DNA of 64,000 nt from assembly GCF_025502585.1 (NCBI RefSeq), contig NZ_CP106679.1:4309501-4373500 (forward strand). Reading direction: 5' to 3'. The notes beneath the pieces are model-generated. The model saw only the letters and a program-made list of their open reading frames with translations. It did not search any database and was not told the DNA's origin. The DNA is from Reichenbachiella agarivorans. Its GTDB lineage: Bacteria; Bacteroidota; Bacteroidia; Cytophagales; Cyclobacteriaceae. Below, in pieces: positions 29,922 through 58,186 of this stretch; position 1 is the stretch's first letter, and each line of letters opens with the position of its first letter. Made by a program: the position numbers and the translations under genes.

Positions 29922-31397
29922 TTATGGATTTTGCTTTGCCTCAGTATTATTGGTAACCTCATTGAGAGGAATGAAATAAATATTGCGTAGATCATCCCAA
30001 GGTATAATTTGAGTAGTTTCTCCATTTGGTAAATGGACACCTGGATAACTTCTATCAATATTCATTTTGTTTCTTACTAAATCGTGGGTTCTGAAGCCTT
30101 CCCAGGCCAATTCTAGTCTTCTTTCATTCAGCACCACCTCTAGGATATTAGCCAGTCCTTTAAAATCACCTGCCGAGTACAACTCAGTACCAGAAAGACC
30201 CGCACGCTCGCGAATTTTATTGACATCTGCCAGTGCTTCACTTTCATTGTTCAAATGTGCATAGGCCTCTGATCGGTTGAGATACACCTCTGCCAAACGA
30301 ATCATTTGAGGAGAGTTTAAGGTCACGACATCATCCTGATATGAAAACTTGGTAATGAAATATTTGGGATAGCCGTTTCTCTGTTTGACGGTCACTCCAT
30401 CGACATCATAATCTGGTTTGATAAAATCATTTCTCACATCGTTGGGATTGGCTCCCAAGAGGTCTCTCAACGTCTTGGAAGGATAAATCTCTCCCCACCC
30501 CAAGCCTTGATCTGTCAAGTACATGGATCCAACAGCTGCAAGTGTTTTATCATCTTGAAGCAATTGAGCAACATACCAGATCGCCTCAGAAGAAGAAGCG
30601 CTATTCCATAACGAATTGACATAATTGTCTCTAGGCTCCAATTCATATGGGCCATTTGTGATTACCTCATCAGCATAATCAATGGCGTCTTGCCATCTTT
30701 CCATGTGTAAATACACTCTACTCAACAGAGCCTGCGCCGCGCCCTTGGAGGCAAACGCACGGCCTCTTCCTGTCCCCATCAACTCCTCTGCTAGCAATAA
30801 ATCTTCTTCGATTTGATCATAGCATTGACCTACAGTTGATCTAGCTTTCAATGGCGAATCTTCTATTGACAACTTTAGAATCACACCATCATTGTCGACA
30901 CCATGAGAATAAGGTAAGGCAAAAAGTTTCAGTAACTCCAAATGCATGAATGCGCGAAGAAAATAGCTCTCACCCAACAACTGTCTCGAGTTCTCGTCCT
31001 GAGTATCGCCTAGGACTGCTATTATCTGATTGGCTCCATTGATTATTCTATAAGAAGAAAACCATAGATAACTTGTATTGTTCATCGCCGCAAAATGCTC
31101 GCGAGTAAAAGAGTAAAACAACGGATCTGTAGTTGATCCACTTAGCATTACATTGTCACTGGCATATTCAGCCAAATGGTGATAATGGCGTATCCAATAA
31201 TTGGCTGTGTTGTTCGCTCCATAGTAGGTGATGACATCTTTCATCATGGCATAGTTGCCATTAGTGGCTGCCAGCAATCCTTCATAGTTTGTCGACAAAG
31301 ATTCCGCCACGATGCCTTCACTTGGCAATTGATCCAACTCACACGCTGTAGTTATCATTATCAAGCAGGCAAAACTTATTATTAATATTCTTTTCAT
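29922..31397 (-). CDS. RagB/SusD-family outer-membrane lipoprotein
   Basis: Surface glycan-capture lipoprotein, 491 residues. MKRILIISFACLIMITTAC is a lipoprotein signal (Cys19). TPR-like helices typical of SusD are visible: YFLRAFMHLELLKLFALPYS, AAQALLSRVYLHMERWQDAI, then RLAEVYLNRSEAYAHLNNES and LEVVLNERRLELAWEGFR near the C-terminus, the last a family hallmark. It lies 11 bases after its SusC partner and ends with a terminator. It is at the left end of the inferred GalNAc locus. Confidence 0.95.
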   Translation of the reverse strand: MKRILIISFACLIMITTACELDQLPSEGIVAESLSTNYEGLLAATNGNYAMMKDVITYYGANNTANYWIRHYHHLAEYASDNVMLSGSTTDPLFYSFTREHFAAMNNTSYLWFSSYRIINGANQIIAVLGDTQDENSRQLLGESYFLRAFMHLELLKLFALPYSHGVDNDGVILKLSIEDSPLKARSTVGQCYDQIEEDLLLAEELMGTGRGRAFASKGAAQALLSRVYLHMERWQDAIDYADEVITNGPYELEPRDNYVNSLWNSASSSEAIWYVAQLLQDDKTLAAVGSMYLTDQGLGWGEIYPSKTLRDLLGANPNDVRNDFIKPDYDVDGVTVKQRNGYPKYFITKFSYQDDVVTLNSPQMIRLAEVYLNRSEAYAHLNNESEALADVNKIRERAGLSGTELYSAGDFKGLANILEVVLNERRLELAWEGFRTHDLVRNKMNIDRSYPGVHLPNGETTQIIPWDDLRNIYFIPLNEVTNNTEAKQNP

Positions 31398-31408
31398 CTC
31401 TCTTCTGA

Positions 31409-34387
31409 TTAAAATTTAGCGGTGAGTTTTATCAAATACTGCTTACTGATAGGATATTTAAAATCCTGAAAGCCTGGCAGTTCATACTCTGATGCAGAAA
31501 TTCGTGTTTCAGGATCCAACCCCGAAAATTTCGTCCAAGTAATCAAATTGTCTGCGCTCAAGGAAAGATTCAGAGATTGCAAACCAATTGCAGAAATCAT
31601 GTCTCTTGGAAATGCATAACCTAAAGAAACATTTCTCAAACGTATGTAATCACCATCCTCTAGATACCTAGAAGAGACCGCATTTGATTGCTGGTTACCT
31701 CCTCTTACAGGCAATGGGTGAGTTGCCTCGTCCCCTGGTTTTTCCCATCTACTCCATCCATCTTGGAGATTCATCAAATTATACTCAGGATATGCTCCAT
31801 CACTGTCAAAAAGCTGACGTGCACTGTGATACACCTTGTTACCAAATTGATATGACAACAAGACATTGAGCGATATGCCTTTGTAAGCAAAGCTATTGGT
31901 CCATCCACCGTAAAACTTTGGAAGTACATCTCCCACGGCCTGATACTCTGCTTGAGAATATACACTTGTCGCTTCTCTCGATATCACATTCCCATCCGCA
32001 TCACGATTCACCTTCTCCCAAAGAGGGCTACCGTCATCTGGATTCACTCCCAGCCACTTGGGCAAATACCATTGTCTCAGAGATCCTCCTACCTCAGAGA
32101 TCTGCTGTGCCCCTGTCCCAAAGTACAATTCATCGTCATCACCTAAACTCACTATTTCACTTTTATTCCATGAAATATTAAAACCTGAGTTCCAAGAAAA
32201 TTTACTAGTTGATTTTAGAATGTCAGCATTTACGGCAAGTTCTACTCCTTGATTTTTCACTTCTCCAGCGTTCCTCAACTGTTCTTCATATCCAATAGAC
32301 AATGGTAGCTGAACTCTCAGTAGCATATCCTTGGTTGAGTTTTGATAATAATCAAGAGTAACATTGATTCGATCAAACAATGACATGTCCACCCCTACAT
32401 TCCTAGAGACGACTGTCTCCCAAGTAATCTGTCTATCTGCCAACAAGGGAATTGTACCAGCAGGACTGCCATTATAATTGGTAGAAAGGTCATAATATGA
32501 TAAATAAGGAAAGTAAGTACTACCTACATTGTCATTGCCAACCTCTCCGTAACTAGCTCGAGCCTTCATGAAAGTAATCGGTCCCTCGCCAAAAAAGTCC
32601 TCTTCACTAATCAACCATGAGGCGGACACACCAGGGAAGTACCCCCATCTATTGTTAGGGCTAAATTTGGAAGACCCATCTGTTCTGAAAACTCCTGTCA
32701 AGAAATACTTTCCTGCATAGGAATAATTTAGCTCCGAAAGGAAAGACATCCGGGTACTGGTCACATTTGATCCTCCCACACTCACTGGCTCTGCTGCCGC
32801 ATCCAGTACATTCAATCCGATGGGGATGTTTCGTGCCGAAGCATTCAAATATTCCGCATAATAACTAGCCCCCTCTACACCTACAAAAGCACCAACAGAA
32901 TGCTTGCCGATATTCTTGCTTCCTCTAAGAATTAAAGTGGAAATCGCATCTCTCGAACTATTGTCCGAGCTAGTAAGTGTCCCATTACTGGCCTTACCAT
33001 CTTTGGTTCTAGGATCATAAAAAGTTTCATATCCCGAATCAAACAAAGACACCATGGTACGAGACTCAAGACTCAGCCACTCTGTCATATCAATGGTCAA
33101 AAAGACGTTGCCCGTCATGGCCAAAGATTTGTTTTTGTTGTAATTGTACTGAGCCGTATGCAACACATTTCTTTTATCCCTACCATACCATTCGAGAGAT
33201 GTGGTATTGTCGATGTATTTTACCGAACCATCATCCGCATAAGGATTATCCCAAGGTAAATTTAGAAATGGGTCATATCTCCAATCCCAAAAATCTTGGT
33301 TGCTGTCACTTTGAACTACCGAAAAATTTGTTTTAAGATTTATGTTATCCTTGATCTGAAAACCCAAATTCGTACGAAAGCTGATTCGTTCATAGCCTGT
33401 ATTCACAAGTGTTCCATCCTCATTATAGTAGTCCAGAGACACAGCATAGGTTGAGTTTTCACTACCTCCTCTCGCTGCTACATAATAATTTTGAAGCATG
33501 CCTGGCTGATACACTTCATCGACCCAGTTAAAATTTTGATCCTCCAAATTACTCGGTCTTTGATTAAGAAAACCCACAGTATTGGTGCCCCACATTACCT
33601 TTTGAACTTCATAAAGATCAGCTCCGTTCATTACCGAAAAATTTCCCGTCGTAATTCGCTTTTGCCCTAAGGTAGCCGAAAACTCTATTTCTGAATTTTT
33701 CTTCGTCCCTACCTTGGTAGTCACCACCATCACTCCACCAGAAGCTAACGAACCATAAAGTGCCGTAGCAGCGGCATCTTTCAATATCGTCACAGATTCT
33801 ACATCATTGGGTTGATAAGTCCCCCCAATCATACCATCCACTACTACTAGTGGTGCTCGATCTGCCGTGAGAGAATTGACTCCTCTAATTCTTATTTCAG
33901 CAGCGGACCCAGGAGCACCTGTCGATGTAGTGACACTCACACCCGCAACCTTACCCTGAAGCATGCTTTCGACATTGGAGGAAGTCACGTTCTGTAAATC
34001 ATCACTACCCAAAGTACTGGCAGAAGCCGAAATCTCTTGCCTTGATTTGATTGAGTACCCCATCACCACTACTTCTGAAAGCTCAGATGCATCTGGCTCC
34101 AAGGTAACGTCAACAACGGACCTACCTCCTATTGCCTCTCTAGTACTGGCAAAACCCACAAATGAAAAGACTAAAACATCGTCTCCCTTTGCCTCAATAG
34201 AATAATTACCCTCGAGATCAGTAACGGTTCCTACTGATGAACCTACAACAACAATTGTCGCTCCCGGCAACCCTTCTCCATCCTCACTTGATATCACTCG
34301 CCCATTAACCAAAGACTGAGCCTTCAAATTTGGAGCAATTATAACCAATAGCAGGATTAACACTCTTCTTATAAATGTTTGTATCAT
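31409..34387 (-). CDS. SusC/RagA-type TonB-dependent outer-membrane transporter
   Basis: Oligosaccharide importer paired with the following SusD, 992 residues. Signal peptide ending near LKAQS (about residue 24); carboxypeptidase-like domain (VNGRVISSEDGEGLPGATIV, about 27-100); TonB-box region (LSEVVVMGYSIKSR); plug domain with LVVVDGMIGGTYQ and ALYGSLASGGVMVVTTK; then a barrel ending QYLIKLTAKF. It is the first gene of the leftward pair, and two TTTC-rich operator-like sites lie in the 147 bases shared with the divergent EamA gene. Its substrate is inferred to be a GalNAc-containing glycan from the genes to the right. Confidence 0.95.
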   Translation of the reverse strand: MIQTFIRRVLILLLVIIAPNLKAQSLVNGRVISSEDGEGLPGATIVVVGSSVGTVTDLEGNYSIEAKGDDVLVFSFVGFASTREAIGGRSVVDVTLEPDASELSEVVVMGYSIKSRQEISASASTLGSDDLQNVTSSNVESMLQGKVAGVSVTTSTGAPGSAAEIRIRGVNSLTADRAPLVVVDGMIGGTYQPNDVESVTILKDAAATALYGSLASGGVMVVTTKVGTKKNSEIEFSATLGQKRITTGNFSVMNGADLYEVQKVMWGTNTVGFLNQRPSNLEDQNFNWVDEVYQPGMLQNYYVAARGGSENSTYAVSLDYYNEDGTLVNTGYERISFRTNLGFQIKDNINLKTNFSVVQSDSNQDFWDWRYDPFLNLPWDNPYADDGSVKYIDNTTSLEWYGRDKRNVLHTAQYNYNKNKSLAMTGNVFLTIDMTEWLSLESRTMVSLFDSGYETFYDPRTKDGKASNGTLTSSDNSSRDAISTLILRGSKNIGKHSVGAFVGVEGASYYAEYLNASARNIPIGLNVLDAAAEPVSVGGSNVTSTRMSFLSELNYSYAGKYFLTGVFRTDGSSKFSPNNRWGYFPGVSASWLISEEDFFGEGPITFMKARASYGEVGNDNVGSTYFPYLSYYDLSTNYNGSPAGTIPLLADRQITWETVVSRNVGVDMSLFDRINVTLDYYQNSTKDMLLRVQLPLSIGYEEQLRNAGEVKNQGVELAVNADILKSTSKFSWNSGFNISWNKSEIVSLGDDDELYFGTGAQQISEVGGSLRQWYLPKWLGVNPDDGSPLWEKVNRDADGNVISREATSVYSQAEYQAVGDVLPKFYGGWTNSFAYKGISLNVLLSYQFGNKVYHSARQLFDSDGAYPEYNLMNLQDGWSRWEKPGDEATHPLPVRGGNQQSNAVSSRYLEDGDYIRLRNVSLGYAFPRDMISAIGLQSLNLSLSADNLITWTKFSGLDPETRISASEYELPGFQDFKYPISKQYLIKLTAKF

Positions 34388-34402
34388 ATAATTATCTGCT
34401 TT

Positions 34403-34534: not shown

Positions 34535-35410
34535 ATGATTTTATTCAAACCATCATCCAAATGGCTCATATTCACTTTTGCAACAACCATATCGTGGGGC
34601 ATATGGGGAGCACTTATAGAATTACCCGAAAAAAATGGCTTTCCTGCTACCATGGGATACATTGCATGGGCACTCACCATGGTACCTTGCGCAATCATAG
34701 CACTCAAAATAGCAAATTGGAAGCTTGACAAAAAGCCTAAATCCATCTTACTAGGTATGGCAGCAGGCTTAACAGGTGCTGGTGGTCAAATCATACTGTT
34801 CCAAGCATTGCGCGAAGGACCTGCGTATATTATTTTTCCTATTATATCCCTCTACCCAATCATAACCATCTTGCTTTCCGTCTCAATTTTAAAGGAATCA
34901 GCAAGCAAAAGACAAGTTTTTGGAATTCTATTTGCCCTTGCGGGAATTTTTCTTCTCTCTTATAGTAAAGGAGACAATTCTATCACACAAGGATACACTT
35001 GGCTCATCCTCTCTGGACTCGTATTTCTATCATGGGGCACTCAAGCCTATGTAATGAAATTCTCCAATGAATCAATGAGCGCTGAAAGTATCTTCTTTTA
35101 TATGACAATCTCCAGCCTTATATTGACACCTATAGCATACGTGATGACAGACTTATCCATAGATATCAATTACGGATGGGATGGAGCATACAGCGCACTA
35201 CTGATTCACTTCCTCAATTCTATCGGCGCACTAACCTTGGTATATGCACTTAGATACGGAAAAGCAATCATAGTCGTACCCTTGACAGGCCTATCTCCAT
35301 TGATCACAATCACACTATCCCTAATCCTGTATAACGTGTGGCCTAGCCCCTCACTATTTACCGGAATGGTGCTAGCCATAGTTGCGATATGCCTATTCTT
35401 CGAAGAATAA
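34535..35410 (+). CDS. EamA/DMT-family permease
   Basis: Inner-membrane transporter of 291 residues with about ten hydrophobic helices arranged as two EamA repeats (about 12-145 and 150-290). Recognisable family features are GGQIILFQALREGPAYIIFP (the GPA(Y) end of helix 4), LKESASKRQVFGILFALAGI and, in the second repeat, ALRYGKAIIVVPLTGLSPLI. It is divergent from SusC and within the catabolic locus, sharing operator-like sites, so it may import or export a sugar or amino sugar; the glucose/rhamnose-type branch of this superfamily is known to carry sugars. The substrate is not visible in the sequence. Confidence 0.9.
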   Translation: MILFKPSSKWLIFTFATTISWGIWGALIELPEKNGFPATMGYIAWALTMVPCAIIALKIANWKLDKKPKSILLGMAAGLTGAGGQIILFQALREGPAYIIFPIISLYPIITILLSVSILKESASKRQVFGILFALAGIFLLSYSKGDNSITQGYTWLILSGLVFLSWGTQAYVMKFSNESMSAESIFFYMTISSLILTPIAYVMTDLSIDINYGWDGAYSALLIHFLNSIGALTLVYALRYGKAIIVVPLTGLSPLITITLSLILYNVWPSPSLFTGMVLAIVAICLFFEE

Positions 35411-35580: not shown

Positions 35581-36546
35581 ATGAAAAATCTCAACTTTAA
35601 AAATTTGCTAACGCTGGGCTTATTAGTAAGTGCCACTGTGTTTTTCTCATGTGAGGACAAAGAAGACAAACTACTTGCTCCTGAAGCTGGATTTACTTCT
35701 GAAATAGACGGCAAGACCATCACACTTACCAACACGACAGAAGGAGAAGAAGTAACCTATTCTTGGGATTTTGGTGACGGAAACACTTCAGTGGAAGTAT
35801 CTCCATCACATACTTATGAAGTAAATGGTAGCTATGTAATTACCTTGATAGCAACCAACGAAAGCGGTACAGACGACACGCAAGCTGCTGTAGAAATCAT
35901 CAACATAAAAATCGATGGTGACTTAAGTGATTGGGATGACATTCCTGCTTTGGATTTCGAAGGAGACGGATCTTTTGTACAAGTGAAAATGGAAAATCTA
36001 GGAAACCAAAAGCTTTACGTCTATATTGAAGGAAATCAAGATGCGACTTCATTTATTGATTTTTGGTTAGATCTTGATCATGAAGCAACAGCTTTGGGAG
36101 AAAGCGACACCACTGGATACACCAATCCCGCCCTATACCCTGCAACCAATTTAGGTCTTGACGTCCTGTTTGAAGGTATATTTGGCAGCCCATCAGGAAG
36201 AGAACTCAGCGGAATGTTCTTCGGTATATTTTATACAGATGACGATGACGATCTATTCACCAACAACACCGATTTCTCAAAAAGAATAGAACCAGGATTC
36301 AGTAATCAAGTAATCTTTTCTGACTTTGTCAAAACAGAAGGAAGTGTCGCTTACGAATTCTCGATTGACCTCCAAGCATTCCCAGAACATTTAATCCCAG
36401 AACAAGGCAATAAAATTAGCTTTTTCATAGACGAATGGGCTAATTCACCTGAATCAACTGATGGTTGGTGGGCAAGTTTTTCTGGCCACTACCCAGGCAA
36501 CCAAGGTGCCGATGGAGCTGAGGCAGCTACCTACATTTTGAAATAA
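35581..36546 (+). CDS. Lipoprotein with PKD and DOMON/CBM9-like domains
   Basis: Surface lipoprotein of 321 residues. The signal (NLLTLGLLVSATVFFSC, Cys24) is followed by acidic EDKEDK, which favours surface exposure. Residues about 36-110 are a PKD domain (VTYSWDFGDGNTSVEVSPSH). Residues about 112-321 start IDGDLSDWDDIPALDF and form a DOMON/CBM9-like beta-sandwich, likely to bind carbohydrate. It is monocistronic, with its own promoter/operator and terminator. It probably helps bind the target glycan outside the cell, in the manner of a SusE/SusF lipoprotein. Confidence 0.82.
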   Translation: MKNLNFKNLLTLGLLVSATVFFSCEDKEDKLLAPEAGFTSEIDGKTITLTNTTEGEEVTYSWDFGDGNTSVEVSPSHTYEVNGSYVITLIATNESGTDDTQAAVEIINIKIDGDLSDWDDIPALDFEGDGSFVQVKMENLGNQKLYVYIEGNQDATSFIDFWLDLDHEATALGESDTTGYTNPALYPATNLGLDVLFEGIFGSPSGRELSGMFFGIFYTDDDDDLFTNNTDFSKRIEPGFSNQVIFSDFVKTEGSVAYEFSIDLQAFPEHLIPEQGNKISFFIDEWANSPESTDGWWASFSGHYPGNQGADGAEAATYILK

Positions 36547-36623: not shown

Positions 36624-39311
36624 ATGCAAAAAAGTCTAATAGTTGTCATCTTCTTCATCCTTACAAGTCCCCTAAGGTCCAACTGTCAATCAGTCACATA
36701 CCAAAGCCACAGCGATATCATATCCAATCCAGAAAGAGGGTTTTATCACCACACGGAAACACACTCAGCCAACTATAACTTACTCTCTGAATCAACACTT
36801 GCTTCTTACCAGCAATCAGAATCTATTACCCAAATATTACGCGTGTTTTACCTAGAAGACTTTAGAACATCTCCAATCTCAGAAGAATACCTCAACAATA
36901 TAAGAAAAGACTTTAGTGTAGCCAGAAACGCAGGTATCAAATGCATCATTAGGTTTGCCTATACGACTAAAAGCACCTCTCCATACAATGATGCTAAACC
37001 GGAAATTGTTCAAACACATATTGCCCAATTGAAACCTATTTTTCAAGCGAACGCAGATGTAATTGCAGTCATGCAAGCTGGATTCATAGGTGCTTGGGGA
37101 GAATGGTATTACACGGACCATTTCTCTAGCAACCTCAGCGTCACCGAAAAAGATTGGGAAAACAGAAGACAAGTAGTTTTCAACCTATTAGACGCACTAA
37201 GCAGCGACAGATTTCTACAAATAAGAACTCCCGGTTACAAGATGAAAATTTTTGATTCACAAGAACCCCTAGATGAATCCACCGCCCTTTCAAACACATA
37301 CAATAGTCGACTTGGGCATCACAACGACTGTTTCGTTGCCTCCTCTTCTGACTTTGGCACTTATGTTAATCCAGATGTGGAGAAACCTTACCTCAATCAA
37401 GAGACGCTATATACCCCAATGGGCGGTGAAACTTGCGCGCTCGCCTCGCCCTATTCCGACTGTGACAATAGTTCCAACGAACTGGCACGTTTTCATTGGT
37501 CTTACCTAAACAGAGACTACAATACTCAAGTACTTAACGAATGGGACAGCCAAGGTTGTTTTGATGAGATCACGCTAAAGCTTGGATACAGATACGAGTT
37601 GATATCTGGTACATTTACAGAAATGGTTCAACCTAGTGGTACGTTTTCATTCAATCTAAACCTGCAAAATATCGGCTATGCCAACCCATACAACCCCAGA
37701 GAAATAGAAATAATACTCAGAAATCAAGACACTTCGGAAGAATATTTGATCAAACCTGAGGCAAACATCAGACTTTGGCCACTAGGAGAAAATATCAATC
37801 TTTCGTTTACCGCTGGCATCCCTGCAGAGGCAATAGAAGGCAGCTATGACTTATTGCTAAACTTGCCAGATTCATACGAAACCTTACACGACGATCCTAG
37901 ATACTCTATACAAATGGCTAACACTGGTGTATGGGAGTCAAATACCGGGTATAATAATTTAGCACAAACTATTTCGATTTCATCTGCTGGCACCCAACCT
38001 TTATACACAGGAGATATGGAGTTCAAGCTGATAGGAGCAACCTCAGACAATCTAGAAATCGAGGGTAGTTCTGAAATCTTTGGCACGACAAGTACTACTG
38101 GGATACTAGTCTATTGGGGCAGACAAAATACAGAGCTGAAACGCATCATACAGCGCTCAGAAAACGCAGGCGAATTCACCACTATAGCAGCCACACAAGC
38201 AAGTGAAGACTACTACTTAGACGCAAATGTTGAATCACAAAACCAATATACATACAGATACTACCTGGTACAGAACGATCAAAAGACGGCATATTCAGAC
38301 GAAATCACACTAGAAACCAGCGACATAACCACACCGTCAATATCTATTGATGGACAGAAAGCTGACTGGGGAATTTCACCCCTACTAAATTCAGCAACAC
38401 ATGCAGGTCAAGCTTTCAGTATGCGGGTGTTTTTCGATGTTCAGAACCTAAACATACTCATGGAGGGACCAATTACTCAATATGAAGTCTACATCAATTC
38501 AGACCTTGACGGCAACACTGGATACCAAGAGGAAAACAATCCCATCCAAGGGGCAGATTACTTTATATCAAATCAAACCCTCTATAGATTCATCAATTCA
38601 CAGTGGTCAGAAACCGAAGCAGTTATTACCACAGCAACAACAAGTAATATCACCGAGATTTCACTCAATCAAAAGGAACTTGAAAACTTAGGTTTACAGA
38701 CTTCAGTTTCGTTTTACTCCTTGGTAAACAATGGTGAAATCCAGCTTTCCTCTACAAGCAACAAACCATCCATCGCATTCAGAGCACTACCCCCAGACCT
38801 ACCTTCAAACATAACGGTTAAGAAATCGGAACTAATGCCAAAATCAAGGTTATTAATAACTTGGGAGGCATGTACGTACTGTACAGGGTACACATTAGAG
38901 AGATCCCTAGATCAAAGCAACTACATCGAAATAGGAAGATACAACGCTAATACGATAGAAACTCTAGATGACAACCTAGAAAATGAGACCACCTATTTTT
39001 ATAGAATGACTTCCTTTAACAACATGGGAAGTTCTACCTACAGCGAACCAGTAAGCGGCACCACAGGAGAGACAATTTTAAAAACCCAGTTCGAAAAAAA
39101 CGATTTCAATGTCTACCCAAACCCTACCACTGGCATCATCAATCTATCCAAAGCATACAATAAAATCTTCCTTTACTCTATATCAGGAACAATGCTCAGG
39201 TCAGCAGAGCAAACCTCTAGCGTAGACTTGAGTCAACTCCAAAAGGGTGTTTACATATTAGTAGCAGAAGACATTCAAACTAAATCCACAACAAAGGTGA
39301 TCAAGCTATGA
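36624..39311 (+). CDS. T9SS-secreted putative glycoside hydrolase (DUF4874/DUF4832-like) with carbohydrate-binding modules
   Basis: Secreted protein of 895 residues. A signal peptide (about 1-23) precedes a region beginning NPERGFYHHTETHSANY and containing AGIKCIIRFAYTTKS and VMQAGFIGAWGEWYYTDHF (about residues 36-170), typical of DUF4874 followed by DUF4832 (to about 450), predicted TIM-barrel glycosidases. Then come a module starting ISIDGQKADWGISPL (DOMON/CBM9-like, about 573-720), a fibronectin-III-like domain (about 730-810) and a T9SS sorting domain (FNVYPNPTTGIINLSKAYNK to the end). It probably attacks or binds the glycan that this locus targets. Its 3' end overlaps the convergent deoR-like gene by 11 bases. 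Catalytic residues cannot be named with confidence. Confidence 0.8.
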   Translation: MQKSLIVVIFFILTSPLRSNCQSVTYQSHSDIISNPERGFYHHTETHSANYNLLSESTLASYQQSESITQILRVFYLEDFRTSPISEEYLNNIRKDFSVARNAGIKCIIRFAYTTKSTSPYNDAKPEIVQTHIAQLKPIFQANADVIAVMQAGFIGAWGEWYYTDHFSSNLSVTEKDWENRRQVVFNLLDALSSDRFLQIRTPGYKMKIFDSQEPLDESTALSNTYNSRLGHHNDCFVASSSDFGTYVNPDVEKPYLNQETLYTPMGGETCALASPYSDCDNSSNELARFHWSYLNRDYNTQVLNEWDSQGCFDEITLKLGYRYELISGTFTEMVQPSGTFSFNLNLQNIGYANPYNPREIEIILRNQDTSEEYLIKPEANIRLWPLGENINLSFTAGIPAEAIEGSYDLLLNLPDSYETLHDDPRYSIQMANTGVWESNTGYNNLAQTISISSAGTQPLYTGDMEFKLIGATSDNLEIEGSSEIFGTTSTTGILVYWGRQNTELKRIIQRSENAGEFTTIAATQASEDYYLDANVESQNQYTYRYYLVQNDQKTAYSDEITLETSDITTPSISIDGQKADWGISPLLNSATHAGQAFSMRVFFDVQNLNILMEGPITQYEVYINSDLDGNTGYQEENNPIQGADYFISNQTLYRFINSQWSETEAVITTATTSNITEISLNQKELENLGLQTSVSFYSLVNNGEIQLSSTSNKPSIAFRALPPDLPSNITVKKSELMPKSRLLITWEACTYCTGYTLERSLDQSNYIEIGRYNANTIETLDDNLENETTYFYRMTSFNNMGSSTYSEPVSGTTGETILKTQFEKNDFNVYPNPTTGIINLSKAYNKIFLYSISGTMLRSAEQTSSVDLSQLQKGVYILVAEDIQTKSTTKVIKL

Positions 39312-40083
39312 TCACCTTTACTCCCGCATCTTCTAACCTCCTGCGATCCTCGTTATCTATCTTATCATCCGTCACTACCACATCAATTCTATCAACAGGA
39401 CAGATATAGGCAAAGCTTTTCTTTTTGAATTTACTAGAGTCAGTCAAGAGAATTACTTCGTTAGCTATCTCAATCATTAATTCATTGAGATGGGCTTCCT
39501 CAATATTTGGTGTATACAGCCCCGTTTTGGTATCAAAACCATCCACTCCTAAAAAAGCCTTGTCTACATAGAAATTTTTGAGACCCCGCTCTGCCATTGG
39601 CCCTACCAACGACTGAGAATTTTTCCGAAGATACCCTCCAGGAATGGTCAAGCTTACATTTGGATTATTAATCAACTCACCTGCTATATTGAGAGCATTT
39701 GTAATCACAGTCAAATCCTTTATACCATTTAGGTTTTTAACCATCTCTGCAGTAGTAGTACCCGAGTCAATCAAGATAATCTCCGAATCACTAATTAAAT
39801 TGGCAGCTGCCCTACCAATTTTAACCTTTTCATTGTAATTAAGTTTATCTTTTTCAGATAGGTTATAATCGACCCCTACCCTTCCTTCAATTTTCATCGC
39901 ACCTCCACGTGCACGAATCAAAAGATTCTTCTGCTCTAGTTGATCCAGATCATTACGAATCGTAACTTCACTTACACCAAATCTAGAACTCAATTCTTCT
40001 ACAAAGACCTTACCATCAGCATGAATAGCAGTAAGGATATCATTTCGTCTAGAGACAGTGGAACTTCTAGTATTTATAGGCAT
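39301..40083 (-). CDS. DeoR/AgaR-like transcriptional repressor
   Basis: Regulator of 260 residues. The N-terminal DeoR helix-turn-helix is clear (RRNDILTAIHADGKVFVEEL, then FGVSEVTIRNDLDQLEQKNL, about 12-60), followed by RARGGAMKIEG. The sensor domain resembles sugar-phosphate isomerases (LIDSGTTTAEMVKNLNG, TIPGGYLRKNSQSLVGP, VDKAFLGVDGFD) and would bind a phosphorylated sugar. It is divergent from agaS, the standard position of AgaR. A TATTTTTG promoter element is just upstream, and TTTC-rich sites lie in the shared 173-base gap and at four other places in the locus, so it is likely the master repressor of GalNAc genes and of itself. The inducer (tagatose- or galactosamine-phosphate) is inferred. 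Confidence 0.92.
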   Translation of the reverse strand: MPINTRSSTVSRRNDILTAIHADGKVFVEELSSRFGVSEVTIRNDLDQLEQKNLLIRARGGAMKIEGRVGVDYNLSEKDKLNYNEKVKIGRAAANLISDSEIILIDSGTTTAEMVKNLNGIKDLTVITNALNIAGELINNPNVSLTIPGGYLRKNSQSLVGPMAERGLKNFYVDKAFLGVDGFDTKTGLYTPNIEEAHLNELMIEIANEVILLTDSSKFKKKSFAYICPVDRIDVVVTDDKIDNEDRRRLEDAGVKVIIA

Positions 40084-41429: not shown

Positions 41430-41433
41430 CACA

Positions 41434-50331: not shown

Positions 50332-50970
50332 TTAGCTACCTGAATTGTTTCTATGTAGCAAATCGAAGAATGCTACAAAGGCATCACACTTATACCATTT
50401 CTGCATAAAGATGCCTTGGTTAAGCGCACTGATGCCCATAGACACATTTTCGCTAGAAATGTTCGTGTTGGCTATCAGTACCTTATCCGTCAGGTCAATG
50501 ACTTCTATTCGAGAATGGAAGTCGGACTGAGCCAATTCTTCCTGCCTTAGAAGCATGTTATCCAGTGAAAATTTGCTTACCCCTAATTCGATAACAGACC
50601 CACTCTTATATACGCTGGCAATTCCTAGGTTCGTTCGTACAACTTCATCCGTTGCTTGCCCTACCATACGCATAAAACGTCCTATTCTCAGCCAAAAGTC
50701 AAAGCCCGTGGATAACCGTCTGTATCTAAATTTTCATTACTGCCAGCAGAGTGCTGTTGTTTTATCTATGAATATTCCATAACTGGCTTCAAATATCCCC
50801 TAACAAGCACATAGGATAATCTACTTTGGGTGGTGATTTCAAAACCGTAGGGACTTTACCACACTCTACTCAAAGGTAAATCCTTCATTTTGGTCAAATC
50901 CAGATACCTTTCCATAAAACGAACTTTTGCACTGGATAAATTGGTCATGACCAGCAGTACCAGCCTTAAT
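50332..50970 (-). pseudogene. Decayed duplicate of the beta-helix gene's DOMON/T9SS end
   Basis: The minus strand carries broken sequence homologous to 48052-50241. The open part (50332-50673) reads LGIASVYKSGSVIELGVSKF, matching LGAVTVSKSGSVIEMAISKS of the intact gene, then RIEVIDLTDKVLIANTNISS and GIFMQKW, resembling a sorting domain. The DNA at 50725-50790 also matches the intact gene at 48640-48690 (shared GAGTGCTGTTGT or AAGTGCTGTTGT and ATCTATGAATATT or ATCGATGAATATT words) but is frameshifted. Farther upstream only short fragments such as YGKVSGFDQNEGFTFE remain, ended by a stop. The signal peptide and beta-helix are gone. Confidence 0.75.
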
Positions 50971-51373: not shown

Positions 51374-53956
51374 TTATATATCCAATTTTATCCCAGGATA
51401 ATTAGACCTTAACTCTCTTATATATTCTTCTGACTTAACCTCATTGGCTTTCACTTCACGCTGAATACCTAATATCCCCCAATCCCTATGTTCTGGAATC
51501 AGAAGAGGTATCTTTCTGATAAACCAATATTTGTCTCTACCATTTACACTTACTTTTTCCAAACTATATACTGGAATTCTACTTTTGATAATTTTCATCT
51601 CTTCCTCCCAATATTTAACTGCTACATCCTCTGAGAAAAATGCAGAATCATCCTTCCCAAGAATATCTTCTACCCCTACTCCATAATCTTTGGCAACAGA
51701 TTTATTCACTAAATAAAAGGTGCCTGTTGGATCTTTTACTTCTACCTTATCCTGTAGCTCATTGAGGATATTCACAAAAAGCTGGTTTTGTTCCTTAGCT
51801 GAAAGAAGAGCTGCTTCAGAGGCAGCTCTTTGATTTTCAACCAACATTTTCTCCTGCTCTCTATTCAATCTCTCACTTTCCTTCATATCAGTTATATCTC
51901 TGGAAATTCCGAAAATACCTACAACTTTTTCATCGGCTCCATACAATGGCAGTTTATTAACCAGAAAATAACGATCCCCACTCTTTTGCACATGATTGAG
52001 CAGAGGTTCTTTAGAATAAATAATCTTCTGTTCTTCGTCCAAAGCTTCTTGAGCCATATGACCCAACAATTCAACATCAGATTTACCTAATAACTCTTCA
52101 GAATCTTTGACCTCATACAATTCTTTCATAGATCTACTCACCCTCGTGAAACGGCTTTTCAGATCCTTGAAATAAATAAAATCAGGCATATTCTCAAGCA
52201 AGGCATCTAATAAGCCTTTTTCCTTCTCATAGGCATCCTTCATTTTGAATATAACCTTATTATCCACATTTTCATCAGACAGTTTTAGCATACTTACTCC
52301 ATCCTTGAAATTCTCTGCTATCTCTGATAAACCTTGAACTTTACGCTCATTAAGTCTCATCCCTCTAGACAGCTCTACTGCTGAAGCTGCTACTTGTTCA
52401 GAACCCGCAGCAGTCTGCTCAGCGATAACTACTATCTCTTCTGTCAGAGATAGTACACTTCTCACATCCAATTCCTGCCCATTTGTAGCTTTCAATATTC
52501 CTTCAGAAAAGCTCAGCGTCCTCATAGAAGCTTCCTGAATCTCCTTGAATGCACCAGAAGTAGTTTGAGCTACACTCTGTCCCATGGTCACACTCTCATT
52601 CATTTGTTGTACAGCAACTGAAGCAGACGAAGTGTCGTCTTGCACCTCATCTACCAAAGTCTCAATTTCTTTTAAAGAGTTTTTGGTATCATCGGCCAGC
52701 TTTCGTATTTCTTCTGCTACTACCGCAAACCCACGCCCAGCCTCACCAGCCTGAGCAGCTTCTATTGCAGCATTCAAAGCAAGTAAATTGGTCTGACTTG
52801 CTACATCTTTGATCAATTTGATAACTGTCAACATTTGCAATACCCTCTTCTGAAGCACCTGAATTGAGTCATTGGCCTTAAGAGTAGACTCTGATATTCT
52901 ATCCATGCCAGATAGCACTTCACTGACCATCACCAAACCTTGTTCACTTCTCTCTACACCTTGCTTGGCTGCATTGTATATACCCTCCGAACTCTTTCCC
53001 ATTGCTTGAGCCGAAGACAAGATGTTTCCGATCAATCTAGAAGCTTCATCAATTTTATCTACTTGCGCCTGTGCCCCATGACTCATTTGATTAATGGATG
53101 AAGCTATTTCCGTTGTATTCACAGACATTTCTTGGGTCGAACACTTCATTTCTAAAGCCGACTCATCAATACTGTGGGCATTTATAGCTACCTGAGTCAA
53201 CAAACCATCCATGTTGTTCAATGCCAAATTCAGGTTTTTTGACAAATCACTCATCTCACCATCCGTTTCAAATGTTAAACGCCTAGTCAAGTCACCTTGT
53301 GCCATGGCATTCATGATTTCATTCAACGATTGAATTGGACGCATATAGGAATTTAATCGGAGATATATAGATTGATATAGCTCGAACCAGCGTCCTTTCA
53401 ATATCATCTCTTGATCCAACTCTTTCTTAACTCCAGATTGTATCAATTCATCAAGATCATTTATGAAAGAGGTGATCTTAGTTTGTAATAACTCAAAAGA
53501 GGTTTTTGATGGATTCGAGTCTGGTAAAGAAAAATTGAGATCTCCTGTACTTATTTCATTAACACAGGTTTCAATCTCTCGCAACTGTGTGTGTTGTAGC
53601 TCAAGTTTTTTCCATACCTGAAACATTGATGGACTTAACACCTCCTCAGGGTCTTCAATCAGCTCACTCTCTTCACTCCCAAATTTTTGGAGCAAAGTTA
53701 GTTGCTTGTCATACTGCCTTTTTTGACTATAAATTATCAACAACAGACAGCCTAAAGAAATAGGAATACAGAGAGCCTCACTAAGAAACCCTCTGAATGA
53801 AGCCCATAATACTAAAACATTAAATGCACCAAGAATTATAACATACCCATGAGTGTATAAATTGAGGGAAAAAATATTTCGAAAAATTATGATCCCTAGA
53901 AACACTCCAAATGAGACCAATCCCAAAATCACATCCCAGTTGACTAATTCATCCAT
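51374..53956 (-). CDS. Methyl-accepting chemotaxis-like receptor with C-terminal PAS domains
   Basis: Membrane signal transducer of 860 residues. The N-terminus has four hydrophobic segments (about 8-90: [49 protein letters not shown]) with no room for a periplasmic ligand domain. HAMP-like segments follow ([17 protein letters not shown] region, about 205-260). The chemoreceptor signalling hairpin is canonical at its tip ([20 protein letters not shown], about 385). After it come two PAS domains (about 565-690 and 725-840: [34 protein letters not shown]), the reverse of the common order. It begins 18 bases after the GH109-type gene, so the two are co-transcribed. Whether it couples to CheA or another output is not visible. 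Confidence 0.9.
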
Positions 53957-53974
53957 AGCTAATAATAAACTCTA

Positions 53975-55330
53975 CTAGTACCTGTCATCAAAGCCAAAAA
54001 TTGGCTTACGACTGATCCACTTTCCTCTCGTAAAATCTGGAAAAGCTACAGGCTCGCTTCCATCTGCAATTGACTGCTCTGACAGACATGTAACTGCCGC
54101 CCAAGAAACAGCATCATACACATCCATAGGCATAGGCTCATTTCTTTTCAGTGCCTCGACAAAAGCATGAATCACAAAGAAATCCATCCCTCCGTGTCCT
54201 GCATCTTTGGAGTCTGACTCAAATTTTTTCCAAAGCGGATGATCATACTTCTTCATATACTCCTCGTCGCTCTCCCACTCATGCGCAGGACTTTTACCCT
54301 CCACATAGATACCATTGTTTATATCCATCCATAAACCCTTGGTGCCCTGAATTCTGAACCCTAAAGAGTAAGGTCTCGGCAAGTTGGTGTCATGAGTGAG
54401 TACAATAGACTCTCCATTGGCACATTTAATCACTGTTGTTACTATATCTCCAAGTTTGAATTTCACATCTGCATTTGGATGATTTTCTCCTCCGTTAGGA
54501 TGGTTGACTATATACTCGTGTAATCCTCTTGATTTTGTAGCTGTAGATGTCAAATACTCAAATCTATTTCCTCTGTTGTTGTTAATGCAGTGAGCGACAG
54601 GCCCCAAACCATGCGTAGGATACAAATCTCCATTTCTTTTTACCGAGTGGTCTGTTCTCCATTTGGCTTCACTATACCCTTTTTCTCCAAACTCAACTCC
54701 TCCATCATAAAGCTGTTTACCATCATTAAACTTAACATGGCGAAGATCGTGCTCATACCCTCCTTGAAGATGAATAATCTCTCCAAATAGATTCTGACGT
54801 ACCATATTTAGCACAGCCATTACATCTCTTCTATAAGCCACATTTTCGAGAATCATAAAAGGCGTACCTGTCTTTTCATAAGTATCAACCAATGCCCAAC
54901 ATTCTCTGATATCAAAAGCTCCAGCTACCTCTAGGCCTACGGCCTTCTTAGCTTCCATAGCATCAATAGCCATAGGCGTGTGCCAAATCCATGGTGTAGA
55001 TATGATGACAGCATCCACATCGTCCCTTTTGAGTAGGTCACGATAAGAATAAGAATTATCACTAAAAACCGCTGGTTTTTTCATTCCCGCGTCTTGTATC
55101 ATTTTAGATGCACCAGCTACACGATCTTTATCTACATCACAGATGGCTGTCACTACGATATCAGACCTACGCAGAGTCAAGGCCAACTGACCTGTCCCTC
55201 GTGCTCCTACACCTATGAAACCCAACCTAATTTTATCAGTCCCTTTACCAATTCCAAAAGCAAAAGATGGACTTACTAGCGCTAGTGCTGCACTAGCCGC
55301 TGTTTTCATCACAAAATCTCTTCTATCCAT
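53975..55330 (-). CDS. GH109-type alpha-N-acetylgalactosaminidase (Gfo/Idh/MocA fold)
   Basis: NAD-dependent glycosidase that removes terminal alpha-GalNAc, 451 residues. A Tat signal is evident (MDRRDFVMKTAASAALAL, Arg3-Arg4), so the folded, cofactor-loaded enzyme is exported. The Rossmann motif is GFIGVGARGTG (about 37-47). The blocks GGYEHDLRHVKFND, FGEKGYSEAKWRTDHSVKRN and GDLYPTHGLGPVAHCIN (His240) are those of the GH109 family known from Elizabethkingia rather than of ordinary sugar dehydrogenases. It is first in a leftward operon with the chemoreceptor-like gene, and a TTTC-rich operator-like site lies upstream. It is the strongest single clue that this locus uses GalNAc-terminated glycans. 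Confidence 0.92.
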   Translation of the reverse strand: MDRRDFVMKTAASAALALVSPSFAFGIGKGTDKIRLGFIGVGARGTGQLALTLRRSDIVVTAICDVDKDRVAGASKMIQDAGMKKPAVFSDNSYSYRDLLKRDDVDAVIISTPWIWHTPMAIDAMEAKKAVGLEVAGAFDIRECWALVDTYEKTGTPFMILENVAYRRDVMAVLNMVRQNLFGEIIHLQGGYEHDLRHVKFNDGKQLYDGGVEFGEKGYSEAKWRTDHSVKRNGDLYPTHGLGPVAHCINNNRGNRFEYLTSTATKSRGLHEYIVNHPNGGENHPNADVKFKLGDIVTTVIKCANGESIVLTHDTNLPRPYSLGFRIQGTKGLWMDINNGIYVEGKSPAHEWESDEEYMKKYDHPLWKKFESDSKDAGHGGMDFFVIHAFVEALKRNEPMPMDVYDAVSWAAVTCLSEQSIADGSEPVAFPDFTRGKWISRKPIFGFDDRY

Positions 55331-55344
55331 AATATTAAATTATA

Positions 55345-55356: not shown

Positions 55357-55390
55357 CTTATAAATCAGCCACAATATAACAAACATTCAT

Positions 55391-55450: not shown

Positions 55451-55488
55451 TATGTTTGAGCTAATTATACTTTCGAAAACTTATTAAT

Positions 55489-57270
55489 ATGATATTATCG
55501 ACATTAGACTGGTCATTTGTTATCGGTTTTTTCATCATTTCACTCGGTATTGGTATATGGTCTGCCAAGTGGGGAAACAACAACGCAGATGACTATTTCA
55601 ATGCAGGGGGAAAAATGCCATGGTGGCTTCTTGGCGTATCAATGGTAGCTACGACCTTCTCCACTGACACACCCAATCTAGTAACTGACATAGTCAGGCG
55701 ACACGGAGTATCTGGCAACTGGACCTGGTGGGCATTCTTGCTCACAGGCATGCTGACTGTTTTTGTCTATGCGCGACTTTGGAAAAAATCAGGAGTTGTC
55801 ACGGATGTAGAATTTTATGAATTACGATATAGTGGTAAAATCGCCAGATTCCTGAGAGGTTTCCGAGCTATATACTTGGGGTTTATCTTTAATGTGATGA
55901 TCATGGCTACCGTATCATTGGCCGCCATTAAAATTGGCGGTGTATTGCTCGGGCTTACCCCAGTTCAGACTGTATTGATAGCTGGTACAGTTACTGTGAT
56001 TTACAGTTCACTCGGTGGATTAAAAGGTGTATTAATCACTGACTTCATTCAGTTCTTTCTATCTATTGGCGGAGCATTTATTGCCGCCTTCGTAGCACTA
56101 CAACATCCTAAAGTCAACGGATTGACCAACCTTCTTGCTCATGAAAATGTAGTGGACAAATTAGACCTCTTCCCGTCCCCTTCTAATCCTGAAGTTTTCA
56201 TTATGATTTTCCTAATACCACTTCTAGTTCAGTGGTGGTCGGTGTGGTACCCAGGAGCAGAACCTGGAGGTGGAGGATACATTGCTCAGCGCATGTTTGC
56301 TGCCAAAAACGAAGACCATTCTATCAAAGCTGTTTTATTTTTTAATGTTGCCCACTACGCCCTGAGACCTTGGCCATGGATTATCGTGGCACTTTGCTCA
56401 TTGGTAGTATTCCCAGATTTGGACAGTTTCCTTGTGGCATTCCCGCATGCAAAAGACATTATAAACAATGACCTAGGCTATCCAGCCATGCTCACTTTTA
56501 TTCCCTCTGGATTACTCGGCATAGTTGTCACCTCACTGATAGCTGCCTACATGTCTACAATCTCTACTCACCTCAATTGGGGAGCATCCTATATTGTCAA
56601 TGACTACTACAAGCGTTTTATGCGCCCCAACGCGAGTCAAAAAGAAATGTTAAACACAGGCCGAATCATTACAGTCATATTGATGGTTTTCACCATGATT
56701 TTTGCTCTTTTATTAGACAATGCCTTGAGTGCCTTTCAGATATTACTCCAGATTGGAGCTGGTACTGGCTTAATCTTTATCTTGAGGTGGTTTTGGTGGA
56801 GAATTAATGCTGCCAGCGAACTATCCGCTATGATCAGTAGCTTTTTTGTTGCAATCTATTTCAATCTCATTCATGAAGCCATAGGTTTTAACCCATTACC
56901 AGATTGGCTGGAACTATTGCTTGGTGTTGGTATTACCACACTGGTTTGGATCACTGTCAGTTTGGTTTCTTCTCCTACCAGCACCACTGTCTTAGTCAAC
57001 TTTATCAATCAAGTCAATCCAGGTGGACCAGGTTGGAAAAGAATAGTGGAGAAAGCCAAAAACGAAGGTTTCGAGCTCACTGCAAAACCTGAAAAATGGA
57101 AAATACCAGTAGGCATCCTATCAATGATAGCTGGCACAATTGGTATTTACTCATTCCTCATGGGAACTGGCCTTTTTATTTATGGACGTCACCTTAGCGC
57201 AACCATATTGATGGCCATCTCGGTAGGCTGTGTATTTGTTTTGAAAAAACTTTGGGTAAAATTGAAATAA
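55489..57270 (+). CDS. Sodium:solute symporter (SSS family)
   Basis: Inner-membrane Na+-coupled importer, 593 residues, with about 14 hydrophobic segments. Family features are NADDYFNAGGKMPWWLLGVS (about 32-51), the FSTDTPNLVTD helix, YSSLGGLKGVLITDFIQFFL (about 170-190), and LLGIVVTSLIAAYMSTISTH with NWGASYIVNDYYKRF, the usual Na+-site region. It begins the rightward operon with the LacC-like kinase four bases downstream. In this locus the likely cargo is GalNAc, galactosamine or galactose released by the glycosidases; the family alone does not fix the substrate. Confidence 0.93.
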   Translation: MILSTLDWSFVIGFFIISLGIGIWSAKWGNNNADDYFNAGGKMPWWLLGVSMVATTFSTDTPNLVTDIVRRHGVSGNWTWWAFLLTGMLTVFVYARLWKKSGVVTDVEFYELRYSGKIARFLRGFRAIYLGFIFNVMIMATVSLAAIKIGGVLLGLTPVQTVLIAGTVTVIYSSLGGLKGVLITDFIQFFLSIGGAFIAAFVALQHPKVNGLTNLLAHENVVDKLDLFPSPSNPEVFIMIFLIPLLVQWWSVWYPGAEPGGGGYIAQRMFAAKNEDHSIKAVLFFNVAHYALRPWPWIIVALCSLVVFPDLDSFLVAFPHAKDIINNDLGYPAMLTFIPSGLLGIVVTSLIAAYMSTISTHLNWGASYIVNDYYKRFMRPNASQKEMLNTGRIITVILMVFTMIFALLLDNALSAFQILLQIGAGTGLIFILRWFWWRINAASELSAMISSFFVAIYFNLIHEAIGFNPLPDWLELLLGVGITTLVWITVSLVSSPTSTTVLVNFINQVNPGGPGWKRIVEKAKNEGFELTAKPEKWKIPVGILSMIAGTIGIYSFLMGTGLFIYGRHLSATILMAISVGCVFVLKKLWVKLK

Positions 57271-57274
57271 CAAC

Positions 57275-58186
57275 ATGAAAAAACGCGTTTTAGTCGTCTG
57301 TCCTAATCCTGCTATTGATATATATGCCTACATTGATCATTTCAATGTAGGCATTCCTAACAGGATAACAAAAGAAAAAAAATATCCTGGAGGAAAAGGC
57401 TTACATGTAGGCATGGCTCTTTCTGAATTAGGCATAGAAGTAACAATCGCAGGCTTCTGGGGCGGTGAAAGTGGACAATGGATCAAAAAGTCTTGTAATG
57501 AATATTATCCCAACATTCAATTCATTGGGACAGAACTAGAGCAATGGTCTAGGAGCTGCTACACTTTTAAGTCCGAGGGGAATTTTGATGATACAGAAAT
57601 CTTAGGAACAGGTCCTGAAATTCAGAAACAAGATTTTCAAGCGTTTATTGAAAGTATAGAGTCTCATTTGCCCTCTACGGTAATGGTGGTATTATCGGGC
57701 TCATGGCCCAAAGGTAGTCCAGAAAATGGCTATGCTGAAATCATCCGTATTGCCCAACAAGCTAACATTAAGAGCATGTTGGACTGTACGGGCAAACAAC
57801 TAGAAAATGCACTTATGAATCGACCCTATGCCGTACACCTCAATCGAAAGGAAATTACAGATTTTTATCAGTGTGATTTCGATAAAGCAAAGCAACAAAT
57901 ACTCCAATCTTGTGAATTGGCTGCTATCACCGATGGAGCCAAAGGATTATCTCTACTTACCTCACAAGGCACGTACCACAGTTTGGCAAAAATAGACAAA
58001 GTCCTAAGTACCATAGGTGCAGGTGACTGCTTGACCGCTGGGGTAGTCGCCGGGATCGTAGAAAAATTAGACCCACAAAGTATAGCAAATTTAGGTGCTG
58101 CATGTGGAGCTGCCAATTGCAAGAGAGAAGATTTAGGGATGCTATATATCTCAGAAGTAAAAGCACTTTTGTATATGATGGTTTAG
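57275..58186 (+). CDS. PfkB-family kinase, LacC/FruK-like (probable tagatose-6-phosphate kinase)
   Basis: Cytosolic kinase of 303 residues. The N-terminal VVCPNPAIDIYAYIDHF and the motif KKYPGGKGLHVGMALSELGI are those of the 1-phosphofructokinase/tagatose-6-phosphate kinase branch. The C-terminal signature is STIGAGDCLTAGVVAGI with catalytic Asp251. It starts four bases after the symporter stop, a translationally coupled pair. It would make tagatose 1,6-bisphosphate for the KbaY/GatY-type aldolase at 42461. The other PfkB gene (41434) would then be free for a different phosphorylation. Confidence 0.88.
   Translation: MKKRVLVVCPNPAIDIYAYIDHFNVGIPNRITKEKKYPGGKGLHVGMALSELGIEVTIAGFWGGESGQWIKKSCNEYYPNIQFIGTELEQWSRSCYTFKSEGNFDDTEILGTGPEIQKQDFQAFIESIESHLPSTVMVVLSGSWPKGSPENGYAEIIRIAQQANIKSMLDCTGKQLENALMNRPYAVHLNRKEITDFYQCDFDKAKQQILQSCELAAITDGAKGLSLLTSQGTYHSLAKIDKVLSTIGAGDCLTAGVVAGIVEKLDPQSIANLGAACGAANCKREDLGMLYISEVKALLYMMV

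Follow-up and report, generated by a model that had tools for sequence, protein, structure and literature searches.

The DNA analysed here (the window) comprises 64,000 nt of Reichenbachiella agarivorans (contig NZ_CP106679.1, positions 4,309,501 to 4,373,500), and its 29.9–58.2 kb region is part of a single-contig genome of 4.47 Mb that is 98% complete. With a probability of roughly 0.55, we read this region as a utilization locus for a partly de-N-acetylated α-1,4-linked galactosamine polymer, most likely a Pel-type biofilm matrix or fungal galactosaminogalactan. Passages of PMC9135694 describe Pel as predominantly α-1,4-linked dimers of galactosamine (GalN) and N-acetylgalactosamine (GalNAc) and liken it to the fungal polymer; one predicted enzyme for α-GalN and one for α-GalNAc therefore make a good fit to Pel. 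We infer the identity of the polymer from the domain-level link of a secreted DUF4874/DUF4832 protein to one tested protein, SIR_1591, and from the specificity type of a glycoside hydrolase (GH) of family 36; Pel, galactosaminogalactan and another polymer of the same sugars are indistinguishable from sequence here. All evidence is sequence-based: hidden Markov model (HMM) scans with Pfam and NCBIfam covered 20 proteins of the window, while calls of signal peptides, lipoboxes and the Tat leader come from visual inspection.

An initial annotation had described the region as a locus for α-linked GalNAc. The genes that it listed (SusC/SusD, an EamA permease, AgaS, two PfkB kinases, a class II aldolase, AgaR, GH36, GH109, a Na+ symporter and a receptor) are present according to HMM matches. 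Its binding proteins can be traced in part, the lipid-anchored one to a PKD-domain lipoprotein, whereas a β-helix protein of the type IX secretion system (T9SS) may be one of those called 'secreted' but left unnamed. Outside its list stood the DUF4874/DUF4832 protein, a secreted amidohydrolase and a NodB-like protein of 484 amino acids (aa). The outline of capture, cleavage, import and a tagatose phosphate route holds at the family level, helped by GatZ/KbaZ-like genes in six relatives, but the substrate has to be revised: the GH36 enzyme is close to the galactosaminidase FpGalNase, no AgaA/NagA was found over the cut-off, and the DUF4832 protein points to a Pel-like α-1,4 GalN/GalNAc polymer over mucin-type O-glycans.

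Predicted glycosidases for GalN and GalNAc

The GH36/melibiase lipoprotein (about 44321–46372 with a chosen start, plus strand; PF02065 63 bits; lipobox by eye) had its best solved relatives in three entries of the Flavonifractor plautii galactosaminidase FpGalNase, 9awt, 9ayu and 8x1b (230–234 bits over residues 119/120–710), compared with 46 bits for the next solved α-galactosidase. Entry 8x1b, although filed as an α-galactosidase, departs from 9awt at P566L, a difference given in passages of PMC11762096. The same source names W317, D346, D347, W387, K461 and D463, together with the non-conserved Y464, C513 and D532, as the FpGalNase active site; this numbering was recovered with an offset of 26, at which 9/9 residues match. 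In the alignment, seven of the nine (W317, D346, D347, W387, K461, C513 and D532) were identical in the window protein and in 15/15 orthologues. D470, in a K-x-D(-G) motif that is invariant at this residue in the orthologues, lies two residues off the D463 column; it is probably the nucleophile, displaced by a gap shift in the alignment. Because FpGalNase is its nearest solved relative and seven of nine active-site residues are kept, the protein is most likely an α-galactosaminidase, so the earlier claim of two α-GalNAc-capable glycosidases no longer fits. Distant GH36 relatives (32–38% identity) lie within about 11 kb of AgaS in three of the five genomes that have them (G044, G103 and G032), a hint that this GH36 subgroup as a whole may serve galactosamine.

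The second enzyme, a GH109 protein with a Tat-like leader by eye (53975–55330, minus strand; PF21252 298 bits), matched the founding α-N-acetylgalactosaminidase, 2ixa from Elizabethkingia, with 490 bits over residues 19–451. Besides the family match it has the other mark of GH109, a GHGG loop, at residue 378 and aligned with that of 2ixa. One of the titles cited by PMC12269599 places the acid-base in such a loop.

A secreted DUF4874/DUF4832 protein as putative endo-hydrolase

The link to Pel comes from a secreted T9SS protein (36624–39311, plus strand) with matches to PF16173 (178 bits), PF16116 (227 bits) and PF18962 (41 bits), which we regard as a putative endo-acting glycoside hydrolase. 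Two acidic residues, Glu160 (GxWGEWYY) and Glu269 (GGET), were invariant in 9/9 aligned sequences, the window's included (the alignment fragment numbers them E138 and E247). A structural model built from nine sequences (pTM 0.73) matched TIM-barrel hydrolases, with β-amylase first. The protein thus combines DUF4832, by its Pfam match, with a TIM barrel, by this model, as does SIR_1591 of Streptococcus intermedius, which disperses Pel aggregates and whose fold matches are also led by β-amylase according to passages of PMC12345266. DUF4832 genes lie directly next to streptococcal and clostridial pel clusters (passages of PMC7112168). A search of solved structures with the DUF4832 protein returned nothing usable.

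The DUF4832 and β-helix proteins have a module in common (30% identity over 90 aa, pairwise E 1.8e-5) that by eye looks like a CBM9-type binding domain, while the PKD lipoprotein showed no significant match to either of them (best E 0.16). Secreted proteins weakly resembling the DUF4832 protein occur near locus genes of relatives (L031:673-2214, L053:12313-13860, L062:6240-7763, L064:8123-9637 and L068:6123-7829). Two of them had sub-cut-off DUF4832 matches, two were scanned without any, and the L068 copy lay outside the scan; they are possibly a second family of endo-hydrolases.

Conservation of the locus in Bacteroidota

Many of these genes are also found together in other Cytophagales, Bacteroidales and Saprospiraceae. 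The 484-aa protein had a match in 21 of 295 genomes of the family, 15 of them (our own included) at ≥49% identity and six at 30–34%. Around this gene we chose 14 relatives' neighbourhoods of 28.7–40 kb and counted window proteins matched with ≥200 bits (≥60 bits for the PKD lipoprotein). AgaS, the first PfkB kinase (PfkB1) and the aldolase were each found in 13 and AgaR in 12, followed by GH109 (11), DUF4832 (10), the PKD lipoprotein (9), GH36 (8) and the amidohydrolase (8); the transport genes were kept in 11 (SusC), nine (SusD), nine (EamA) and four (symporter) neighbourhoods. The grouping of genes noted in the initial annotation is thus above chance. Its embedded receptor, a methyl-accepting chemotaxis protein (MCP), is not supported as a part of the system by this measure: it was present in one neighbourhood of 14 and was ruled out as a core component. 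Rarely kept, too, were the second kinase, PfkB2 (3), and the β-helix protein (1, or 3 with weaker matches, two at 28–31% identity), the latter likewise ruled out as a core part at 3/14.

A scan of titled genomes gave 19 loci, ten in genomes already covered and nine new ones from Bacteroidales, Saprospiraceae, Cyclobacteriaceae, Draconibacterium, Alkaliflexus and other Bacteroidota. Many of the 19 end at a contig or flank edge, and among them at least 13 have AgaS, at least 11 GH36 and at least nine DUF4832 (one a fragment). GH36 adjoins the 484-aa gene in all 11 loci of this set that show both and in seven of the eight GH36-bearing neighbourhoods among the 14; in G042 the two lie about 16 kb apart. 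Starting from GH36 instead, we found 14 genes at ≥55% identity in the 295 family genomes (our own included), with a strong DUF4832 hit within 25 kb in 11 and AgaS within 25 kb in 12, the rest being on contigs without one. The genome-level overlap of GH36 and DUF4832 had a hypergeometric P of 1.4e-13, with kinship ignored, and 21 of 27 strong DUF4832 hits were near AgaS.

PelG, the one pel gene looked for, was not found over the cut-off in any of 16 locus-bearing genomes (one weak match of 20 bits). The bearers therefore look like consumers of a polymer made by other microbes, and digestion of the bacterium's own Pel was ruled out on this result, other pel genes not having been searched.

At L036–L037 and L040–L043 (G136, G182 and G163), an AgaS block occurs together with the amidohydrolase and the NodB-like gene but lacks GH36 in its vicinity; in L037 (G136), the block is followed by genes for a SASA esterase and a pyrroloquinoline quinone (PQQ) dehydrogenase. 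These blocks possibly serve another galactosamine substrate.

A candidate GalNAc de-N-acetylase

Passages of PMC5583593 take AgaS accompanied by AgaA to indicate growth on GalNAc, and AgaS in the absence of AgaA to indicate use of GalN. In our genome, no AgaA/NagA was found over the cut-off (TIGR00221 best 31.8 bits, cut-off 225.65), and on this result we ruled out that an AgaA or NagA encoded outside the locus serves as deacetylase. NagA over the cut-off was likewise missing in 11 of 16 locus-bearing genomes tested, our own included; the other five have six such genes, none near AgaS.

The NodB-like protein (46374–47828, plus strand) probably fills this gap, as far as its sequence and model allow us to judge. 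Neither Pfam nor NCBIfam gave a family match for it at E 0.001. Residues D14-D15, H116, H120, R131, W134 and H264 were invariant in 18 sequences, the window's included, and D14, D15, H116, H120 and H264 mark a possible metal site; an Asp-Asp pair and HxxxH are the metal motifs of CE4/NodB deacetylases. The weak fold matches of its AlphaFold model (pLDDT 87.7, pTM 0.90) included Vibrio chitin(-oligosaccharide) deacetylases and a CE4 esterase as well as unrelated hydrolases. By eye, six relatives' copies (L053, L059, L062, L064, L066 and L068) have a signal-peptide-like start, which is missing in the window's family. The missing AgaA, the CE4-like fold matches and this signal-peptide pattern together suggest that the protein acts on the acetyl group of GalNAc or short oligosaccharides and not on that of a phosphorylated sugar.

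The locus also encodes the secreted Amidohydro_2 protein (43285–44352, plus strand; PF04909 56 bits; signal peptide by eye). Its H53xH55, H184, H242 and D297 were invariant in an alignment of seven sequences, and it had no solved relative at E 0.001, the best profile match being 3cjp at E 0.28.

Sugar catabolism and regulation

The genes from AgaS through the 484-aa gene form a single same-strand block with gaps of −125 to 88 bases between the listed open reading frames. AgaS (40257–41429, plus strand), a galactosamine-6-phosphate deaminase/isomerase by family, matched TIGR02815 over nearly the whole model (367 bits, cut-off 529), and the top three solved structures related to it carry the name tagatose-6-phosphate ketose/aldose isomerase (best 3odp, 281 bits). 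It is followed by PfkB1 (41434–42372 with a chosen start, plus strand; PF00294 162 bits; nearest solved chain YdjH 3h49, 101 bits), a proposed GalN (or GalNAc) 6-kinase, and by the class II aldolase (42461–43282, plus strand), a proposed tagatose-1,6-bisphosphate aldolase that passed TIGR00167 (240 bits, cut-off 216) and remained under the cut-offs of the tagatose- and fructose-specific models. PfkB2 (57275–58186, plus strand; TIGR03168 205 bits, cut-off 216) reached 146 and 124 bits with tagatose-6-phosphate kinase models, again under the cut-off, and is our candidate for that step.

A GatZ/KbaZ-like gene was not found among the locus genes of the window; in six related genomes (G273 = L054, G030, G101 = L060, L053, L057 and L066), one lies between AgaS and PfkB1 (PF08013 114 bits, cut-off 27; under the NCBIfam cut-offs), and tagatose bisphosphate is therefore favoured over fructose bisphosphate. 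An isomerase, a PfkB kinase and a class II aldolase occur in sulfoglycolysis too; we dropped that pathway on AgaR, GH109 and the GH36 type alone.

AgaR, a DeoR-family repressor (39301–40083, minus strand), passed the equivalog cut-off of NF040755 (278.5 versus 260 bits). A possible operator, CTTTCRAW, was picked by eye in promoter regions, which makes its test post hoc: the window holds 27 sites versus 16.6 expected, a count reached in one of 100 shuffles, and six of the 27 lie in four promoter regions of the locus (SusC/EamA 2, EamA-PKD 1, AgaR/AgaS 1 and GH109/SSS 2). In relatives, we counted 2.6 sites per kb upstream versus 0.29 in whole neighbourhoods, divergent regions being counted twice, with a dense set before SusC/EamA (eight sites in eight regions) and none before GH109 (0/7) or the symporter (0/4). 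A stricter form was no commoner than chance (4 versus 2.6 expected), and these counts give weak support to CTTTCRAW as a shared operator.

Capture, import and the proposed pathway

The locus opens with a SusD-like surface glycan-binding lipoprotein (29922–31397, minus strand; PF07980 88 bits, PF14322 68 bits) next to a SusC/RagA TonB-dependent importer (31409–34387, minus strand; TIGR04056 758 bits, cut-off 368). Such an adjacent pair, together with the carbohydrate-active enzymes GH36 and GH109, marks a SusC/SusD polysaccharide utilization locus. An EamA-family permease (34535–35410, plus strand; PF00892 107 bits), the PKD-domain surface lipoprotein, which is proposed to bind glycans (35581–36546, plus strand; PF18911 58 bits; lipobox by eye), and a Na+/solute symporter (SSS; 55489–57270, plus strand; PF00474 106 bits), proposed to import GalN or GalNAc, complete the transport genes.

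In the pathway that we propose, the DUF4874/DUF4832 protein would cut the polymer at the cell surface, and SusC/SusD with the PKD lipoprotein would, by family, capture and import the oligosaccharides. In the periplasm, the GH36 lipoprotein is predicted to remove α-GalN and GH109 to remove α-GalNAc, two well-supported family assignments whose predicted activities match the two residues of the polymer. The Na+ symporter or the EamA permease may then take up the sugars, and the NodB-like protein would strip the acetyl group from GalNAc in place of AgaA/NagA. From their families, PfkB1 is expected to phosphorylate GalN, AgaS to deaminate and isomerise the phosphate to tagatose 6-phosphate, and PfkB2 to form the bisphosphate that the aldolase would split, with AgaR as the likely repressor of the operons.

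More tentatively, and in our judgement at somewhat worse than even odds, at least three orders of Bacteroidota may have a dedicated catabolism of other microbes' Pel-type cationic biofilm polymer. This would comprise one exo-glycosidase for each of the GalN and GalNAc residues, secreted endo-hydrolases of a new class (DUF4874/DUF4832) and NodB-like GalNAc de-N-acetylases that form a new family, which replaces AgaA and has switched membrane sides between lineages.

Conflicting evidence and alternative substrates

Several observations weigh against a locus for a Pel-type polymer. As to gene content, the neighbourhood in G161 keeps nothing of the set but the 484-aa gene and the symporter, five of the 13 AgaS-bearing neighbourhoods show no GH36, six of the 27 strong DUF4832 hits in the family lie away from AgaS, and AgaS is wider than the locus, with 48 stronger hits spread over 46 of the 295 genomes versus 14 genomes with GH36. 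None of the family matches that the locus proteins gave in the general Pfam/NCBIfam scans was a PelA-type hydrolase. The link to SIR_1591 is a shared Pfam domain only, and the fold matches of our model (pTM 0.73) are mostly β-glycosidases. Passages of PMC12345266 also report DUF4832 homologues on many glycoside hydrolases and a likeness to carbohydrate-binding domains, and no catalytic mutant of SIR_1591 was found in them. Elsewhere, the domain occurs in a DUF4874-DUF4832-dockerin protein of a rumen cellulosome producer, Ruminococcus (passages of PMC7480376), and in a Klebsiella polysaccharide cluster (passages of PMC6258164).

The enzymes leave similar doubts. In the GH36 alignment, D463 and Y464 of FpGalNase stand opposite Q472 and H473. 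The model of the NodB-like protein had a GH57 branching enzyme as its best fold match (E 9e-5), its CE4 matches were weak (4ny2_A, probability 0.92, E 3.9e-3; 2c71, probability 0.93, E 6.3e-3), and a profile search of solved structures listed staphylococcal adherence proteins only and no deacetylase. AgaS, PfkB2 and the specific aldolase models all remained under curated cut-offs. Finally, the GH109 enzyme in passages of PMC12269599, a paper on a chondroitin locus, is headed α/β-N-acetylgalactosaminidase, which leaves the anomer for the window's enzyme uncertain.

A locus for the α-GalNAc of mucin-type O-glycans or blood-group-like glycans is unlikely in our view, although several findings would suit it. 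Here, terminal GalNAc would first lose its acetyl group to the NodB-like protein or the amidohydrolase acting as deacetylase, and GH36 would release the resulting GalN, as in the F. plautii pair, whereas GH109 would provide a direct route. FpGalNAcDeAc and FpGalNase act in this two-step manner on the A antigen (passages of PMC11762096). The GH36 and NodB-like genes are mostly neighbours, and the GH109 relative 2ixa is an α-GalNAcase that acts on the A antigen. Against it, the family matches of the 20 scanned proteins include no sialidase, fucosidase, β-galactosidase, sulfatase or GH101/129 (no search for them went beyond these proteins), and the conserved DUF4832 partner is the one with a Pel link. 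The window's NodB-like protein has no signal peptide by eye and therefore could not reach glycans outside the cell. The named relatives that carry the locus are also known mostly as environmental bacteria.

Another bacterial or algal capsule or lipopolysaccharide containing α-galactosamine, with GalN as one of several residues, appears similarly improbable. In some relatives, a GH31 enzyme, a major facilitator superfamily (MFS) permease or a SASA esterase is encoded next to the block, and the β-helix protein, judged by its fold class only, could act on another linkage; however, no enzyme for another sugar was recognised among the scanned window proteins, and the catabolic genes fit one sugar. 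That GH36, DUF4832 and AgaS blocks are mere neighbours serving unrelated sugars is very improbable given that their linkage is repeated across genera and orders, even though our knowledge is limited to family assignments and three genomes of one genus (G136, G163 and G182) carry an AgaS block with neither GH36 nor DUF4832 nearby.

Relation to known systems

The locus shares with other Bacteroidota polysaccharide utilization loci the SusC/SusD pair, a surface lipoprotein, secreted and periplasmic hydrolases and a local regulator. In these loci the regulators are usually sensors, unlike the DeoR-family AgaR of the window. From the Aga/Gam pathway (passages of PMC5583593) it has the AgaR, AgaS, PfkB kinase and GatY/KbaY-type aldolase families, with the GatZ/KbaZ-like subunit in the six related genomes. 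It differs in the absence of AgaA/NagA over the cut-off in the genome and of phosphotransferase system (PTS) families among the scanned proteins, and in a polymer-degrading front end of SusC/SusD and T9SS proteins. In common with the F. plautii FpGalNAcDeAc/FpGalNase pair (passages of PMC11762096), there is a GH36 of the same type (seven of nine named residues) and an adjoining putative deacetylase gene, but the window's pair is part of a Bacteroidota utilization locus and our solved-structure searches with the NodB-like protein did not list the F. plautii deacetylase. Compared with Pel-cluster hydrolases (the PelA hydrolase domain, PelAH of B. cereus and SIR_1591; passages of PMC7112168 and PMC12345266), of which SIR_1591 is also an extracellular TIM barrel with DUF4832, the window protein belongs to a catabolic locus in genomes without PelG over the cut-off and has DUF4874 and a T9SS tail in addition.

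In the titles and abstract openings of the open-licence literature searched, neither a utilization locus for such a polymer nor an organism living on it was described; a search of a plasmid collection gave nothing usable. Pel operons are widespread (passages of PMC9135694). If our reading is correct, the locus would represent an ecological sink for Pel-type polymers and a new kind of food source, with an enzyme set that should take such biofilms apart into monomers and might yield enzymes for dissolving biofilms. It would also add an environmental α-galactosaminidase family, assign a probable function to the DUF4832 and DUF4874 domains and introduce a new family of deacetylases to close the gap left by AgaA.

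Accessory and neighbouring features

Two tRNA-Lys (TTT) genes stand in tandem beside the locus (27537–27731). Inside it, the MCP/PAS receptor (51374–53956, minus strand; HMM scan) has N-terminal membrane helices by eye, a HAMP domain and C-terminal PAS domains; since six CheW-domain matches occur elsewhere in the genome, it is perhaps coupled to a working signalling pathway. The accessory β-helix protein is a secreted T9SS protein (48052–50241, minus strand; PF13229 38 bits, PF18962 40 bits). Between the two, positions 50554–50799 resemble (36% over 83 aa) part of a 1699-aa β-helix protein of the relative G068, whose gene occupies the corresponding place between the MCP and β-helix genes, and this segment is possibly a decayed gene.

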